Source: Actinostola sp. cb2023 (Eukaryota > Cnidaria > Anthozoa > Actiniaria > Actinostolidae). Taken from it: DNA of 64,000 bases. Positions 6,791 through 59,692 of this stretch are shown piece after piece. The translations under genes and the position numbers were made by a program. Under the pieces are notes generated by a model. The model saw only the letters and a list, made by a program, of their open reading frames with translations. It was not told the DNA's origin and made no database searches. Numbering within the stretch: position 1 is the first letter of the stretch; each line of letters starts with the position of its first letter. Location of the stretch: contig JAUJYZ010000796.1 in assembly GCA_033675265.1 (NCBI GenBank), positions 1 to 64,000 on the forward strand. The letters are read 5' to 3'.

Positions 6791-8225
6791 TACAATATTT
6801 TTCATTATTAAAGAAAGGTACAATGAAATAGTAAAGTTTAGAAATGCGAAACTAAGCTGTTTCAAATTAAGCCTTGAGATGTTCTACAACCTGGTATTTT
6901 GAATTTGTTGTCTGGATCACCTAAACATTTGCAGACACTGGATAATTTGGTAGTATTGACTACTATTACATGGAACTACCTGAAAAATATGAAAAAAGGG
7001 GGCAACTTCAAAATCAAGAAAGTGTACAAAATAGAGGACTTCTTGTGAGATGGCACACGCTTCTTGGTTCTTCAATAAAGACAATGTGTGGTTACTTCCT
7101 TACTGTCTGGCCACATTGAAATGAAAACTGAACAAGAACAGTTATTCCACCTTCATATGTTGCTTCTTGTAATGTTCTAGATGATGGTACTGTAAATATT
7201 GTTTTTGTGTCTACTGTCTCTATGGAGACGATGGATTATTTGTCTGGTTGTCGACATTTTATCGATTCGGAAACGTTGAAAATATGTTGTGTTGCATGTG
7301 CTTTTTGCTTCACGCTTTGATTAGAAGGGTAAGTTTACACACTCTAATATACTATTATTCTTTGCACCAGAAACAAGAAACATCTCTCGTACAAAGTGTC
7401 AAGTGTTTTGTTCATAAAGATGTTTTCAAGTTTTTCAGTGACGGTTTGTTGATATTATGTTCCAGTCGAATATTAATTGTGTTTGTTCGCCCTAGCTCCA
7501 TCAGTCCATGACAATCGACTAGTCTGTGTAGTCTAGCACCTCCAATGGCTCCATGTGAAAAACTGATGCTAAGGGCTCAAGTAATTATCTTCGAGGAACA
7601 AATACTAATGTCTTTATACGAGACACAAAAACAAACACGGCTCTCGTTACTCTTTGTCCTAAAACTCACTAAAAGCTGTTCTAACTCAAGTAGCTATTCA
7701 TCTTTAATTTGAAAGCAGTTTTAGAAATTCAAGATATCAAAAGAACATGATTTTAGAAGTGAATTTACGGCCATATGCTTATCGATCAAATAAGATACAG
7801 GAAGCCTAATACACAACAAGAGGGTGGTGAGCCTGACAGCCTGTGAAACCTGAAAAAATCTTTACACACGAGAGATGTGTCTGGTTTCTGGTGCAAAAAT
7901 TTGTGCTAATTTTCGCACCTAAAACGAATGCTTGGATCACTCTCAGCTTTAGTTGAACCCCAAACTACCGTAAATAGTACCTCCACTGAACTTGAGTTTT
8001 CGAGAAAGCAGTAGCTTGTCTGGGCCTCCCAATCATCACTTCTGATAAAGAAGACCCATTTTCAAAAATTGCAACACATGGGAGGCCAGGGTAAGAGCTT
8101 TATTATCAAGGAGGGGATACATAATTCATTGTATGTATTCCAACACTACAAGCGCCATCACGTGATGATGCAATGTGATTGGGAGCAGTTTGTTCGCAAC
8201 CGACCATCGTGTTTAAGAATTACTC
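6791..8225. other. Gene-free spacer
   Basis: No coding region, RNA gene or structured repeat recognised. The small ORFs lack any recognisable domain or splice context. Confidence 0.4.
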
Positions 8226-48959: not shown

Positions 48960-49455
48960 TGTTGTTTAAAATGAATCCAAGTAATAGAAAATGTAAATTA
49001 TCTTTTATTACTTTTTTATAATACTTTATATTTTTATCTTTTTTTTATACTTTAGTTTTTTATGGAGCGCTCCTGTGGTTTTTCATACTTTAGTTCTATC
49101 TTTATTTTCATACTTTAGTTTTATCGGTTTTTCATACTTTATGTTTATCGGTTTTTCATACTTTATCTCTTTTAGGTTTTATCTTTATCTTTTTTAGGTT
49201 TTATCTTTTTTAGTTTTTATCTTTTTAGTTTTTATCTTTTGTGTATCACCCTTTTATAATATAGTAAAACGATATTCCTTTAAGTGTTTTTATGATTATT
49301 TTATCTTTTTTAGGTTTTGTCTTTTTTAGGTTTTATCTTTTTTATTTTTTATCTTTTTTATTTTTTATTTTTTTTATTTTTTTTATTTTTTATTTTTTAT
49401 CTTTATCTTTTTTAGGTTTTATCTTTTTAGGTTTTATCTTTTTAGTTTTTAACTC
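48960..49455. repeat. T-rich tandem array (TTTTATCTTTTTTAGG)
   Basis: Degenerate repeats of TTTTATCTTTTTTAGG, with a unique island at about 49227-49282 (ATCTTTTGTGTATCACCC...). The island is repeated almost exactly at 50556-50611. The array flanks the polymerase on the side opposite 42100-42560. Confidence 0.85.
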
Positions 49456-50555: not shown

Positions 50556-51069
50556 TTGATTATCTTTTGTATATCACCCTTTTATAATATAGTAAAACGA
50601 TATTCCTTTAAGAGTGGATGTCAGGAAAAATCGAACAAATGGCGGCAAACCTTGAATAATCGAATTAGCTCATACTTTCAAGTTAGATAGGGTAGGGTGT
50701 CATAAGAATCGCTGTGTAGTTGGTTTGACCAAATACCATTTCATTTTGGAGAAAAATGCAAATTTCGAAACTCCACCGAAAATGCCGTTGAAGGCACCGA
50801 AATTTGATCGAAGTTTGGAGGTCTCGTATCACAAAATAAACCATTCAAAACCCCTAAAAATACCCCTATCCTGTTAAGTAACCCCGTATTTACTATTTGC
50901 GTGATTTTTAGATGTATTGTTCTCCTCTTTCTTTAGATAATAATTGTATTCTCTACTACACCCATTTCAAGTTGCTAAAAGTACCTCCTATAGAAATTGG
51001 CTTCCACGATGCGCGTAACCTTTAAATGGATTATGCTTCTGCTGGTCGAATGACGAAATGATATGCTCT
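50556..51069. repeat. Duplicated flank and solo TTAA-type terminus
   Basis: 50556-50611 repeats 49227-49282. In the second copy the shared sequence ends at TTAA (50608-50611) and is followed by GAGTGGATGTCAGGAAAAATC. That resembles the terminus of the 19374-21214 element (GAGTGGATGCCAGTAAGAATC). No matching right end is seen before the next element, so this looks like one end of a TTAA transposon. No gene. Confidence 0.5.
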
Positions 51070-51202
51070 AAGATGCTGTAAAAAATTAACTGGGCAAATA
51101 ATTTTGCGTGACGCTAGAGCTCTTCAAAGTACTTCAAAATTTACCGTCTTTGACCTTCAAAGGTCATCACTCGAGACACGTGTTGCGTTGTTTCTGTGCT
51201 TC
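51070..51202 (-). repeat. Displaced 3' tail of the Penelope-like element
   Basis: On the minus strand the sequence leaving the inverted repeat reads AGAAGCACAGAAACAACGCA and continues open for about 20 codons to a stop. It then shows TGATGACCTTTGAAGGTCAA, a small hairpin with a TGATGA box like those near Penelope-type ends. I read it as the continuation of the element at 57562-59692, cut by the insertion of 51203-57561. The reading depends on the insertion model. Confidence 0.45.
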
Positions 51203-51656
51203 TCAAATCATCTAAAACATCTAAATATCTTTAGAATACACCTTAATGTACCATTCAATAGAATTGCTAACCTTTTTGTCGAAAAGGTTGTATCCAGGAA
51301 ATGTTTTGACCTGTAAATCCTACTCAGCGAGTAGCTGACTTTCGATCAGGCATCAACAATCTGTCAACAATGAAACACTGATCTTTGATTATCCTGTGAG
51401 GACGTACTGGGAAGCTGGGAAACGTGCAAAATGCTTTTTGAAAAGCATAGCTACTTCTTTGAAGCGTTTAAAACTGACAACTCACTGGGACTAAGCCACG
51501 TACGAACTTCCATGATTCGATCAATCGATACCACTGGCTGATTATGCTAATTTATTTGCTAATTGTGTAACCCGAACTAATGAAAGTAAAGAAAAACAAG
51601 CTCTTCAAATTACCAGTAGTTACATCCAGTCGAGTGCGTGTACATGATGTTTTAGT

Positions 51657-54600
51657 ATGGAGGTTTGTTGTACATTGAAATCGATCGTTGGTGGAATTTG
51701 TGGCTTCGACAGTAGAGACCGAAATCGTGATGTAGAAGTTATCCCTGTGCTTTCTTGTACGAAGGACATAAGCCAGCACAAGACGAAATATTCCTTTTCG
51801 GGGCCTGATGATGAGGTGGACCTGATATTAAGTCGTGCAGGAATCTTTGGAAAACCAGAGAACTTGAGCACGATGACTGTGTGCCCCCTCCATCGCTCAA
51901 AACTCGGTCTAGGGTGGTCAAGGGGGCGTAGTACCAGATGTAGAGTACCGCCTGCGCTTTCCAATCATGTACTGAAAAGCAAAGGCAATTGGCCGAAAGG
52001 AGATAGAGGATTAGGAAAGAAAGAGTCGGAGATGCTGCTACACAAGACTGGAATGTTTGTACAAGTTGGCTCAGGTTAGAATGGTTAGAACTAGATATCA
52101 ATCCGATATTTCATATTGCCGTTCTATCGGTAGTGAAGTCTAGACCATGCATATACTGTACTAATTGTTTTTTTTACTTAGATTTTGTACTAGATTGTTG
52201 TCACTATTTCGCAAACTGGAATTTAGAATTACGAGAACGCTTTTCATAACAACACGGTTTAGGCGAACTATACCGACACATCTATTCTATTGTTCCCTTC
52301 CAGGTATATGCAGAACATGTAGATACGCATTAAAGGAATTGACAACTAGTGAAGATGTGGTGGATGATTTAGCTCATCAGTTGGACAAGACAATACTGGT
52401 ATGTATAGCCTGTAGATTGTGTAATACAAACATCTGCGTCATTTAATACATATGTGTCGTCAGTGTTGTGCCAGTTACATCAAATCCTTTGCTCGCATGT
52501 GGTGATTATTGCGCAATATGTTTTTCTTTTGTACAGAAAGAAATACAGTAGAACCAAAGTGCGAAGTAATAATATAAAAATATTTAAAAGAATGAAAAGA
52601 CAAGCGAGCATTCAACCGACCGACCGACCGACCGACTGACCGACAATTTATTTTATTTAGCGCACTCATCAAACTGTATATGGGAAAACATCCATCAATA
52701 ACTAATTAGGTATGCATCATAAACTGATACGCATCATAAAATAAGTTGTTTCAAATTTTCAGGATGATCATGATGATGACAATGATGATGATGAAGTTAC
52801 TTTCAACCCTTGTAAGTCAACTCAAGGCAAAATCATCCCAGCACCAGAAACGCCACAAAGCACAATAACATCGACTATGTACACGCCATCAGGAGTCTCC
52901 CAGGCCTCTGACATGTCAATCCTGACACAACCCGGAGATGAGGGCACAGAAACTGTGAAGGCTTCCCCAAAGGACCAACTCAATTCGTTTTTGGTCTCCA
53001 GAGACATAAGTCCAATCAGAACATCAATGACAACTCCATGGGATACTGCCGCAGAAAGAACGAAGCGACATTATATGCGCAAGGCGAAGCAGGTGGTCTT
53101 TGCCACTTTGGAGGAAATTGCGCCCCAAAATTCAGAGATGCTATTTAGTGCCATACAGTCATCTAGGAAAGAAGAAGGGAACATGGATTCTACATTATTA
53201 GAAGCTTTAGTTGAGTGCTACGAGAATGCAGGTCACTGGAGTACGCGCAGACAGATACTCTCTATCATTGCAGATAAAGTAAGCTTTGCAGTGCTTCAAA
53301 GATGGATCCCTGATATATCCAGGTACAGATACAACATCGCACGACACCATGTGTTACTCCATGGCAGAGGAGCTGTCATTCCGCAAGAAAAGAATACAAG
53401 AATGTATGTATCGCCTCAAAAACTCGACCACTTTTTATCGTTCATAACAAGTGCGAGAGTAATGCAAGATTTGCCATTTGGTGAAAAGACATTGAAGCTA
53501 TCTTCAAAGACTGAAATCAAGATCCCGAATGTCATCAGAAGCTCCATTCCTGAGCAAATTGTAAGGCAGTATCAAAGCTACTGCAGCGAGACCGAGTTTT
53601 CTCCTATGAGCCGCAGCAGTCTTTGCAGAATCCTTAAAGTTTGCTCCGCTTCAGTCCGCAAGTCTCTGCAAGGGCTGGACTATGTTTCATCAGAGGGAGC
53701 GAAAGCCTTCGACGATATTGCTGATGTGATTGATAAGCTTGGAGACAACTACAACAATGGACTGACCTGGTCAAAAGAGTTGGCCCAAAAGCTTAAACTT
53801 GCAAAGCGATATTTGAAGGGTGATTACAAGGTAAGTAAATATGTGTGTTTAACGGGGCTCTCTCATCCACAGTGCTTTGCGCGCCGAATCGCTATTTGAC
53901 ACACACACACACACACACAAATAAATAAATAACTACGCTATCTTACTGGTTTGGACTGTGTTTTCTCCAAAGGAATGTTTCCAGTTCCACAGAGTGTCGG
54001 ATGGCTTAGATAATCAATGGATTAAATAAATATATTGATTCGGCGCGCAACGCACTGTGGATGAGAGGGCCCCATTCATTAATGACTTGATTATGTCATA
54101 TACTTTCAAAAAAAGCATACACCATGACATCAGGTGTTTATGTTTCAGGATGAATAGTTGAGTGACCAAGAAGTAATTTTTGTTTTTACAAAATAGGTAC
54201 ACATATCACCAAGCTCAAGGGTTCCTGATCATTGCAGGACTTATGCTCTAAGTCATGACAGCGATACTGACTATGTCGGTAGTTGTGACCATGTCCATGA
54301 TCGAACATGTGATAGATGTTGCTTGTTTCCTGCTGTTGTTGGTGAAGTAGAATCAACCTTGGAACACCTGGAAATTCCAGATGAAGAAAGAGAAGAAATG
54401 AAATACACAGTTGCCCAGTCTAAGAAAAGCGTTGAAGCGTGGAAGGCACACCTACTCCGCTCAGTGAACCAAGATGAGGCCCGTTTAGACATCCTTGACA
54501 CCTTAGATGTAGGATCAGTGTTGGTAGTGTTGGATTGGGCTATGAAGTTCCTCCCAAGAAAGTACCGTGAAAGCCAAGCCGACTGGTTCGGAAAGAGAGG

Positions 54601-56140
54601 CATTTCTTGGCATGTCAGTGTGGCTATGACTAAGTCGGATAGTCAGATACAAATGCTAACGTTAGTTCATATATTCCAAAGCTGCAATCAAGATAGCCTA
54701 ACTGTGCTTGCAATAATGGACGATGTTCTGAAACAGCTTAAAAGCACCGTGCCTGAGATCAAGTCTATCTGCTTCAGACAAGACAATGCCGGCTGCTATC
54801 ATAGCGCATCTACCTTAGTTGGAGTACAACAACTAGCAGAGAAGCATAAAGTCCAAATAAGAGTGGACTTTTCTGATCCACAAGGTGGAAAGGGGTCATG
54901 CGACCGTAAGTCAGCCACAATAAAGAATCATATGAGAGTATTTCTGAACTCTGGCCACGACATCGAGACTGCAGAACAGATGAAGACCTCTATGGAGTCA
55001 TTTGGTGGTGTGCCTGGTGTCAGGGTAGTGCTCTGTGGTCCCCTTGACAATGTGAAAACAGCTCCTGTAAAGTGGGAAGGCATTAGTCTGGTAAATAATA
55101 TCATATACCTAGAACAAGGAATGAAAGTCTGGAGAGCATATGGAATTGGTCCTGGGAAGTTTGTGCCGTGGACTGCTTTTGACGTATCCAAGAGGCCATC
55201 GGCGTCAAACCTGAAAGTAATCGAAGACGCCACTCACCCCAAAGCGACGTTTTGCCCCATCAAAGCCAGACGACAGAGTAAAGAGCAAAGTGAGACAACA
55301 AGTGAGACAGAATCAGCCAGTGAATCCTCACCTGAAGAGAGTAGTAGTACAGGTGGTGATGATGCGCTTTTCGCTTGCCCTGAGGAAGGATGTATGAAGA
55401 CATATCAAAGATATTTCTCACTTCAGAATCACTTGGACGCTGGCAAGCATAACTACGTCCTTGAAAGAGAAACACTTCTCGACAAAGCAATGATGAGGTA
55501 TGCGTCTAATCTAGAACATGGCGCTTCATCAATCGATAACGTAGTAGAAGATCGATTGCCCTCCGAGTCCTTAAGTGGCGAGCCTACGTTAACAATGGGA
55601 TGGGCATTGAAATCAACGACAACACGAAAACATCGACTAACTGACCATCAAAAAAGACACCTCACTGACGTATTTCTTATTGGGGAACAGACAGGGAGGA
55701 AAGCGGATCCCAGTGAGGTCTCAAGATCAATGAGAAGAGCACGAAACTCAGATGGGAGTTTTCTTTTTCAAACAGCCGACTACCTCACTCCCAAACAGAT
55801 AACAAGCTATTTCTCGCGTCTGTCCGCAAAAAAATCCGTCTCGTCTCCACCTGACATCGACGATGATGCTCAAACACTCCCTGACATTGGAGAAAGGAAT
55901 ATCGAGCAACTACGAGAAGAAGTCATGAGCGAGATAGCCATTCAGCATCCAATTATGTATGATACATATAGCATTTGTGATTTGGTCGCAAACTCAAAGT
56001 TGTCCAAGTTTGCAATACCGATGTTGCACGATATCTGCAGTCATTTTGAACTTGACATTCCTACGGTAAAGTATAAAAGAAAAAAACCATATATAGAACT
56101 TCTAGTAAGCTTGGTTAACTCCTGCACCTGTACAAGTTAG
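51657..56140 (+). CDS. Four-exon transposase-like protein, family unknown
   Basis: The exons 51657-52074, 52304-52398, 52763-53830 and 54197-56140 have GT...AG borders and sum to 3,525 nt, a single open frame of 1,174 codons plus stop. The earlier start is not certain. Seen in order: CRTC in exon 2, an Asp-rich run, a helical region with STRRQILSIIADKVSF, then a Cys/His cluster (CDHVHDRTCDRCC, exon 4). Next come VVLDWAMKFLPRKYRESQAD, FRQDNAGCYHSAST, FSDPQGGKGSCDRKSATIK and a C2H2 finger (CPEEGCMKTYQRYFSLQNHL). The three acidic blocks would suit an RNase H-fold nuclease. From memory similar proteins recur in cnidarian genomes. It lies between inverted repeats, hence a candidate transposase; this is inference. 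Confidence 0.7.
53854..54077. repeat. Foldback in intron 3 of the 51.7-56.1 kb gene
   Basis: CTCTCATCCACAGTGCTTTG (about 53860) pairs with CAACGCACTGTGGATGAGAG (about 54051), and GCGCGCCGAATC with GATTCGGCGCG. A (CA)n run lies at 53900-53919. The foldback begins some 20 bp after the splice donor GTAAGT. Confidence 0.75.
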
Positions 56141-57277
56141 TTTTTATTTTCTGTTGTGACATGCTTTACCTCAATACAAGTCATATCTTGAAAGCGATTT
56201 GCAAACATGTTTAAAAAATCGATAGACAAAATATAATGGTGCATTGTGGGTAATGGCATCATAAAATGGCTGAATTTTGAAAATTTGTTTCCGGATCAGT
56301 GTATTGGCGATATATTTAAGATTATGCAAATTACTATATATCGCTATTTTGGGTTCACATATATATATATTTGCAAGTCGCTGTAGATATAGTGCACTTG
56401 TTTAGTTTCAGTTATTCATGATTATTCCTATCACTGAAATGAGTATATAGTGAGAATGAAACGGAGAAAATCGGTCGACCGCATTTCTATTTGCTAGAAC
56501 AATATCTTAGAATTCGCTTATTTACATGGTTTGGTTAAAAAGAATGACTTGAACTACGGCAACATTTTGTTTTCTTACGTTTGAACGCCAATTTTCGCGT
56601 GTTCAAACTGTATGTAAATTACATACGTGATGTGACGTCAATGAGTTCACACGACAATATGCATGGACGAATTATTCTCAATATCGGACTTGTTTGACGT
56701 GAGTTGCTTTGTATTTTCTAGAGGTACAAACCCCTTGACGTCACAGGTCCATTGTCTAGGATCCCGGTTATGGAACGGAAGAGGGATAATTGTGTACAGT
56801 CCCTTGTCCCACATACATTTGGTTACAAATCGCGAAAGAGAAAATGAACGCGCACTCAAAGTTCTCTCGATTGAATTTTGCAAAAACAAGTGAATGTTTC
56901 ACAGTGTATTGGAGTAAAAACAAAAGTGAACCAATGAAATACAAACTAGCACCACGTAATCAAGCTGATCAGAATGTAAATAGATATGATGATAGATATA
57001 GATAAATTGTCAAATATTTTTTTTGCGTTTTTTCCCACGTATTTTGTTACTTTGTGTATATATGTATAATATTTGATAATAAACATGCATTTAGTAATGG
57101 TCTCTTGGTTTGGGACATTTGGCCGAAGCTCTGAGAAGACAGCAACATTGACAGGTTAAGTAATTAGAATAATAAATAAATTTTAAACTCACGAGTTCAT
57201 TGCCTGTGTACATTGCGCCGCTGACTCCCCCCCCCCCTGCGGTGGAAAGCGGATGTACACAGGCTATAATAATGTGC
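56141..57277. other. 3' region of the 6.36-kb element
   Basis: No second gene. A TGACGTCA palindrome-like word lies near 56634 and a short inverted pair, CCTGTGTACAT and ATGTACACAGG, at about 57204 and 57254. Poly-C at 57227-57236. Confidence 0.4.
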
Positions 57278-57561
57278 CATGGAAGTTCGTACGTGGCTTA
57301 GTCCCAGTGAGTTGTCAGTTTTAAACGCTTCAAAGAAGTAGCTATGCTTTTCAAAAAGCATTTTGCACGTTTCCCAGCTTCCCAGTACGTCCTCACAGGA
57401 TAATCAAAGATCAGTGTTTCATTGTTGACATACTCGCTGAGTAGGATTTACGGGTCAAAACATTTCCTGGATACAACCTTTTCGACAAAAAGGTTAGCAA
57501 TTCTATTGAATGGTACATTAAGGTGTATTCTAAAGATATTTAGATGTTTTAGATGATTTGA

Positions 57562-59692
57562 TCTTTATGTTGTTCCAATCAATGGCATGCCCTGATGTAT
57601 GGGCATGCTCCGCCAAAGCTGACTTCTCTGGGTGGTTAAGCCGCACCGACGCTTGATGTTCTTTTATTCGCGTACCTAATGCTCTCCCCGTCTCGCCGAT
57701 GTAGGATGTGTCGCACTCACCACATGGAATGGTGTAGACCACACCTGTCTGTTTCTCGCTGATGACCGGATCTTTTGGCCTTGAAAGGATTTCACGTAGA
57801 GTCTTGTGTGGTTTGACACATGTTCTTATCTTGTGACGCGATAGAACGCGTGAGATTTTTTCAGTGGTGCCTTTCACGTATGGCAATATTGCAAATCCTT
57901 TAAATTCATCGTCTACCGTGCTTTCTCTATTACGTTTTGGTAAAGTTGAAAACTTCTTGATAAACTGTCGCGGGTATCCGTTTTCAGATAAAGACTTGCA
58001 AATGTGGATGTTTTCTTCATTCTTGATGTTATTATCAGTGAGCAGATTTTCCTTTCTGTAGCTAAGTGTTCGTACCACTGCAGCTTTATGACGAGATGGG
58101 TGGTGGCTGTTGAAATCCAGGTATTTGTCGGTATGAGTTTTCTTACGATAAATTGAGATCTCTATGGTTCCATTCTCAGCTACCTTGTTAAGGGTGTCTA
58201 AGAATGGCAAACCAACATCAGAATATCTCTCCAATGTAAACTTGATGTTAACATCTTGTTTGTTAAGGTGTTCATGGAATGCATTGATGTTGTCTTGCTT
58301 AATGATGCAGATGGTATCGTCCACGTAACGTTTGAAAATTCTAGGAGAGACAAGGAATGTAGAAAGTGCTTTGGATTCTATCTTCTCCATTACTAAATTA
58401 GCCACAACTACAGATATTGGTGAGCCCATAGCAGTGCCATGTATCTGCTGGTAGTACTTGCCCTTGAAACTGAACTCAGTTGAACTCAAGCAAAAGGATA
58501 GTAATGATGTAACGTCAGCTGGTGTTAAACTGGTGCGTTCATGAAGACAGAGGTCTTGTTCTAGTCTTGTCAGGGCAGCTGACACCGCTATGCTGGTTGG
58601 GATGGAGGTAAAAAGAGACACTACGTCAAATGACACAAGTTCTTCGTTAGTATCAAGAGTCAATGTCTGTGCTATGTTTGTCCACTCTTTACTGTTGCGT
58701 AAATGTTGTTCCGTATTACCAACCAATGGAGAGAGAATGGTTACAAGGTGTTTCGAGAGCTGATAAGTAGTTGAACCAATGTAACTGATAATAGGCCTTA
58801 ACGGAGTGTCTACTTTATGGATTTTAGGAACTCCATAAAGTCTTGGTGTTATAGCATCCGTGGTACAGAGTGATCTATAGGTGCTATCTTGGAACTTATC
58901 TTTCATTTTGGAAAGCATAGCTTTCAGCTTTGTTTCGCAAGACTTTGCTGGATCCCTTGGTAGTATCTTATAGGTCTTTGTGTCACTCAGCATATTTTCG
59001 ATCTTATTATCGTACTCTGTGCGATCCATGACTACTGTGGCATTACCCTTATCAGCTTTGAGGATGATAATATCTTTGTCATCACGTAAGGTTCTTATTG
59101 CACTTTTTTCATCTTTTGTTAAGTTATTGGCAGGCAATTTCGCACTTGCAAGGATGTTGGTGACTTTATTTCTTATATCTGATTTAGCTTTAGGACTCAA
59201 ACCAGAAATCGACGACTCAGTTTCAATTACGAATTTTTCCACAGGAATCTTGCGAGGGGCAGGTGCAAAGTTTAGTCCTTTAGATAGAACAGACATTTCA
59301 TTCTTGCTAAGGTTCTTACTAGACATGTTCACTATCCATTTTGGATTAACAGTGCTTTTCCTATTACAGTCAAATTTTCGAAGTTCTTCTAGTTTGCGTG
59401 TATGTTTGAGTTTAGTTTCTTCGAAGATTTGGTTGTAATGACTCTTTGTTTCTCTTGTGATGTATCTCCAAAATCTTTCACTACATTGTGGTTTCAAACA
59501 ATCTGAAATGTCGTCTATGTTGATTTTGTATTTCCTGATGATAGTGTGGTTTTCTTGATTAAACTGATTTTTCTTTATTGAATGATTACAAGTACAAGAG
59601 TAACAGCCAATGCGTGACGTCAGAGTACAGCCAAAAAAATTGTAGGATGATGACATCTGGTCATGGAGAATTGACCAGGGGTCCTCAGCCAA
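57562..59692 (-). pseudogene. Penelope-like retroelement reverse transcriptase/GIY-YIG endonuclease, 3'-truncated by insertion
   Basis: A 710-codon minus-strand frame from ATG 59692. The RT shows LRDDKDIIILKADKGNATV, then RLYGVPKIHKVDTPLRPI, TAMGSPISVVVANLVMEK and the catalytic YVDDT. The C-terminal endonuclease has VVYTIPCGECDTSYIGETGR (the GIY-YIG pair as VYTI and YIG) and an RIKEH basic helix. This RT plus GIY-YIG order defines Penelope-like elements. No internal stop or frameshift is visible up to residue ~710, where the frame runs into the inverted repeat of the 6.36-kb element and ends within it at 57530. Until that insertion the element may have been intact. The protein primes reverse transcription at nicked chromosome ends. 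Confidence 0.92.

Follow-up and report, generated by a model that had tools for sequence, protein, structure and literature searches.

A probable DNA transposon family of Actinostola that inserts at TTAA and encodes a predicted DDD transposase

We analysed a 64,000-bp stretch of the Actinostola sp. cb2023 genome (hereafter the window; contig JAUJYZ010000796.1, our C53), and searched the 424-Mb Actinostola assembly (G000) for sequences related to an element lying at positions 50608 to 57561. This element, very likely a member of a DNA transposon family, contains a four-exon gene on the forward strand: exon 1 (51657..52074) starts with ATG and codes for a Cys/His-rich N-terminal region, and is followed by exon 2 (52304..52398), exon 3 (52763..53830), and exon 4 (54197..56140), which codes for the proposed catalytic core and for C-terminal DNA-binding-like domains. 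Joined at GT..AG junctions, the four exons form one open frame of 1,174 codons with no internal stop, and the gene proposed in a preliminary description of this DNA is therefore recovered, with homologues that align across its full length. Exon 2 is placed by the open frame on joining, while exons 1 and 3 also have the support of the homologue alignment and of conservation in homologues, respectively, and exon 4 that of homologues and of the predicted fold. Two alternative choices of the first intron likewise keep the frame open (1,164 and 1,161 amino acids). We favour the 1,174-residue form because annotated proteins from other animals match it over its full length: residues 1-1172 align end to end with Oculina P0082 (46% identity), and residues 5-1173 with Branchiostoma P0166 (41%) and P0164 (40%).

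Three acidic blocks in exon 4 had been put forward as a possible RNase H-like active site; they are conserved among homologues and are all housed in an RNase H-like core of the predicted structure. The proposed catalytic residues, all on the forward strand, are D1 (LDWAMKF; exon-4 residue 113, 54533..54535) at the end of modelled strand 107-114, D2 (RQDNAGCYH; residue 196, 54782..54784) at the end of modelled strand 190-196, and D3 (GGKGxCD; residue 236, 54902..54904) in modelled helix 233-251. D1, D2 and D3 are conserved in 54, 55 and 55 of the 55 rows of homologue alignment A1, and in 22, 24 and 23 of the 24 rows of alignment A3. Moreover, a lysine is found seven residues past D3 in all 55 rows of A1, which is also the distance between the third carboxylate and a lysine in integrase. 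The DDD triad sits in an integrase-like predicted fold, and the Actinostola protein would share the RNase H fold and three carboxylates with the cores of retroviral integrase and of the Mos1 mariner transposase. It differs from both by its long N- and C-terminal extensions and by an identity of 10-17% in the listed rows, and from retroviral integrase by its DDD triad, the integrase triad being DDE. Scans against Pfam and NCBIfam gave no coherent match for the catalytic core.

Downstream of the core, exon-4 residues 394-418 (55376..55450, forward strand) form a C2H2 zinc finger, already noticed in the preliminary description and now backed by the conservation of C394, C399, H412 and H418 and by a profile match to solved C2H2 fingers (6wmi_A, E 2.1e-06). 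A SAP-like C-terminal domain, with approximate bounds at 55994..56119 (forward strand), is indicated by matches to Pfam SAP in eight of the 55 homologues (best E 3.4e-05) and by a structure-profile match to 1jjr_A (E 0.0039).

The gene is bracketed by two pairs of inverted repeats, one of 153 nt (51362-51514/57278-57430, 100% identical) and one of 131 nt (51203-51333/57431-57561, 99% identical), with 28 extra nucleotides between the two left blocks that the right side lacks. The near-identical repeats reported earlier are therefore present, but the element boundaries drawn at their outer edges have to be revised, as these repeats form just the inner portion of the termini. The copies on contigs C918 and C330 match window positions 50608-57561 at 98.9% and 98.7%, respectively; their homology to the window begins at 50608, where the first letters of the window element are TTAAGAGTGG, and to the right of 57561 they continue into the sequence that starts at 50608, in inverted orientation. 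In C918 this inverted stretch is 94.2% identical over 916 columns, and the right end of C330 is likewise inverted. Because the right ends of both copies mirror the stretch from 50608, we take the terminal repeat to be about 0.9 kb long rather than 0.3 kb. In the window, the left terminal inverted repeat spans 907 bp (50608..51514, forward strand) and starts TTAAGAGTGGATGTCAGG, which is also the reading of both ends of the C918 and C330 copies. The right repeat is reduced to an inner remnant (57278..57561, reverse strand): window position 57561 corresponds to position 7595 of the C918 locus (L011), whose element ends at 8198, and the outer 603 bp are missing and are absent elsewhere in the window. 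Counted from TTAA to TTAA, the copies on C918 and C330 are 7,551 and 7,543 bp long, and those of other families 7,170 and 6,715 bp, with terminal inverted repeats of about 0.78-0.9 kb across families. An origin of the inverted repeats as part of a neighbouring retroelement was considered and rejected, since other copies extend them to a common end further out.

The element inserts at TTAA, with a 4-bp target duplication. We read both termini of 12 insertions (on C918, C330, C842, C388, C954, C1014, C1025, C1593, C454, C492, C910 and C951), including two whose ends lie 13-15 kb apart and whose pairing is presumed (C388 and C954), and in 11 of them TTAA stands immediately outside GAG at both ends. 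The window copy has its left target at 50608..50611, and it and three further copies read at one end only (C860, C1253 and C858) show TTAA at that end; no outer end was found for the C1253 copy (L015). Empty sites hold one TTAA, which identifies it as the duplicated target. Contig C1129 carries the C330 flanks joined by one TTAA, and the C1593 insertion lies in a tandem array of units of about 104 bp (L057, L038), where one TTAA occupies the corresponding position in each of the three neighbouring units read. The short repeat that hosts the C910 insertion also has one TTAA there, as judged by eye. In the window itself, a repeat copy of the element's left flank (49232..49284, forward strand; 97.9% over 48 bp) represents half an empty site, with a single TTAA past which the sequence diverges into other DNA.

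Such a target raises the question of known TTAA-inserting transposons. PiggyBac-type elements duplicate TTAA as well, but their termini are CC..GG according to a passage of PMC10045372, whereas those of the Actinostola element are GAG..CTC, and exon 4 has no Pfam DDE match; we regard this assignment as hardly credible. Kolobok elements, as characterized in a passage of PMC9587614, combine a TTAA duplication and 5'-RR termini with a DDE triad and a C/DxxH motif between the second D and the E, and they usually carry a THAP domain (part of PMC6004289). The duplication and the purine-purine start (TTAA, then GAG) are common to the Actinostola element. The remaining traits differ: in all 55 rows of A1, D and not E stands as the third acidic residue; C/DxxH lies between D2 and D3 in none of the 55 rows of A1 and none of the 24 of A3; and none of the 13 Pfam families to which the 24 A3 members match (E 0.1) is THAP, in a scan where some of these members are without their N-terminus and the window protein was represented by exon 4 only. 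A Kolobok transposon is accordingly an improbable identification.

The element is present in many copies. Exon 4 has at least 86 matching stretches in the genome, with 33-100% identity, a lower bound since 68 of 1,235 first-look candidates were scored, and the outermost 153 bp have at least 40 matches (40 of 79 candidates scored). On C454 (366309-369687) and C492 (79942-84124), paired termini with TTAA on both sides lie 3.4 and 4.2 kb apart; these contigs have no listed exon-4 match, and the pairs probably represent shortened copies. When 30 exon-4 loci were excised, 24 contained a stop-to-stop frame of more than 620 amino acids. Within the C1014 family, identity between copies reaches 99.96%, which makes recent movement probable, and judging from these sequences the transposon family was probably active in the recent past. 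We also observed at C860:5000-14900 (L013) two oppositely oriented copies that abut where their right parts are cut; the left copy has the same left flank as the window copy.

These data bear directly on the possibility that a host gene was simply caught between two inverted repeats, for which the long spliced gene with its open frame might speak. Rather than occupying conserved single-copy loci without repeats, the relatives are multi-copy, have repeat ends and empty sites, and include copies with precise TTAA-bounded ends, and the homologues are patchily distributed across phyla. We therefore give a captured host gene next to no credence.

We consider it very likely that the element belongs to an Actinostola DNA transposon family with TTAA ends, whose spliced gene encodes a 1,174-residue DDD RNase H-like transposase, a reading founded on established ends, TTAA duplication, empty sites, multi-copy families, conserved triad and predicted fold. 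A single spliced gene would yield the transposase, which would recognise the long inverted termini with its zinc-binding, helical and SAP-like parts, cleave at the TTAA/GAG...CTC/TTAA ends, and join the element to a target TTAA that would be duplicated in the process. The kind of enzyme and of termini would suggest cut-and-paste rather than copying. The window copy has an open frame and has lost its right end, while the C918 and C330 copies have both ends and frames that are broken under a simple transfer of exon bounds. The window copy could then supply the enzyme, but it is unlikely to move by itself as a normal unit, being poorly able to do so with its outer right end lost, though its gene is open.

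Several observations weigh against this reading. The C951 insertion is degenerate and without intact ends, and no end of the second C860 copy was found where we looked. An extra 3-bp match lies outside TTAA in C918 (TAC) and C330 (ATA); a 3-bp duplication beyond TTAA was nevertheless rejected, as it is absent in C842, C1014, C1025 and C1593, and empty sites show TTAA. When the exon bounds of the window copy were carried to four other all-exon copies of its own family, the frames were broken in all four. The ratio of nonsynonymous to synonymous substitution rates (dN/dS) between the window and C842 families is 0.158, but at a dS of 1.29, near saturation; among young pairs it lies between 0.14 and 1.5, and no dS could be obtained for three deeper pairs. 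The Foldseek structural similarity (TM-) scores of integrase matches are low, at 0.16 by whole model and 0.34 by target. Finally, we infer, rather than observe, the enzymatic activity of the transposase.

The element is one of a large family that is spread over several kinds of marine animals and whose members are poorly labelled. Named homologues occur in sea anemones, stony corals, an octocoral, Branchiostoma, Antedon, Mytilus, Saccostrea, and the bdelloids Rotaria and Adineta, and more than 3,000 member sequences stand behind the homologue clusters listed. Where cluster members bear labels, these read 'hypothetical', 'uncharacterized', 'C2H2-type domain-containing', or give the name of a neighbouring gene. 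Names of unrelated genes or Pfam domains were seen on the homologues P0009, P0058 (Paramuricea), P0160, P0161, P0184 and P0185, which are perhaps gene models fusing the transposon with its neighbours. One pattern-based scan with the A1 profile gave 16 pattern matches in prokaryotes and another gave 13 in viruses, none of them relatives by tblastn, and Foldseek found no match among viral structures at E <= 0.001. Literature searches had no paper on this transposon family among their listed results.

Among described superfamilies, the best fit is Sola, and within it probably Sola3, where the element would form a new family; we lean towards this placement, a Sola3-like family being the most likely because the published Sola traits fit. 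The target of Sola3 is probably TTAA. It is not given in the portions of PMC5199201, PMC9297572, PMC8634313 and PMC4746887 that were available. As described in part of PMC10741241, Sola elements have a DDD transposase, a 4-bp duplication, a length of mostly 2-9 kb, and inverted repeats of 11-1,124 bp. These are matched in the Actinostola element by the conserved D/D/D triad with a predicted RNase H fold, by the TTAA at 11 of 12 insertions with one TTAA in empty sites, and by lengths of 6,715-7,551 bp with repeats of about 0.78-0.9 kb. No tested trait differs, in a comparison made by published traits. Excerpts of two further papers note that Repbase subdivides Sola into Sola1-3 (PMC4455052) and that the annotation of the Acropora tenuis genome shows some parts to be enriched in Sola-3 (PMC12314368). 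Of the preliminary description of an undescribed DNA transposon, then, the transposon holds, through its copies, repeat ends and empty sites, while 'undescribed' is not supported, given an anatomy that fits Sola and relatives in Branchiostoma and Nematostella.

Alternatively, the element could belong to a separate superfamily of TTAA-specific DDD transposons, not Sola and distantly related to Pfam DUF7869 (PF25273), a distinctly less probable reading. That superfamily would be unnamed in Repbase and would form, with DUF7869, a wider integrase-like clade unrecognised by Pfam, which we likewise hold doubtful; its carriers would be cnidarians, amphioxus, a crinoid, bivalves and bdelloid rotifers. 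It is favoured by the failure of the catalytic core to match any Pfam or NCBIfam entry coherently, and by profile comparisons (hhalign) of the cores with DUF7869, in which D2 and D3 are in register: the A1 core gives E 1.9e-04 (score 34.5, probability 48%), and the A3 core E 8.9e-05 (score 36.4, probability 60%). The A1 score exceeds those of 20 out of 20 column shuffles, made for A1 only (maximum 22.9), and of one reversal (13.4). Shared features are a DN following D2 and, at D3, a P-x-x-x-K..D stretch, in an alignment that spans D2-D3 but not D1; in two of the five loci the surroundings of D3 are different. Against a separate superfamily stand the fit of all Sola traits in the published parts seen, the modest core probabilities, and those of whole A1 and A3 alignments, which drop to 19-20% (E 0.0011 and 0.0012). 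The DUF7869 profile, moreover, was built from five of 122 matching stretches in the Actinostola genome, and with three of its five rows nearly identical the relation is only a lead. The presence of relatives in Branchiostoma and Nematostella also speaks against it, these genomes having reportedly been mined early for transposons. Three Branchiostoma homologues score 13.2, 13.2 and 11.5 bits against DUF7869 by hmmscan, below the Pfam cut-off of 26. A remote relation of the Actinostola transposase to DUF7869 is thus suggested at the level of sequence profiles, and DUF7869, highly repeated in this genome, is possibly another transposase family. The five DUF7869 loci read ADN..(G/A)QNKN and GH(T/S)..D in the corresponding stretches.

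On the present evidence, the vaguely labelled homologues can be assigned a catalytic triad and precise ends, along with a target site and a likely function, and gene annotation in several marine invertebrates would be cleaned up. TTAA-specific transposition also becomes testable, and the usefulness of piggyBac came from its clean TTAA target. The weak DUF7869 link points to a transposase in a second large family of repeats as well.

Two further features were seen at the locus. The start of intron 3 (53851-54076) holds an inverted repeat whose arms, of 45 nt each, are 89% complementary and spaced by 136 nt, and which resembles a small hairpin-type insertion. On the minus strand, a reverse-transcriptase frame of 720 amino acids (57530-59692) runs into the truncated right repeat; it matches RVT_1 at E 5.9e-06 with 26.6 bits, under the Pfam cut-off of 29.6, and by eye appears Penelope-like, with a GIY-YIG-like tail.
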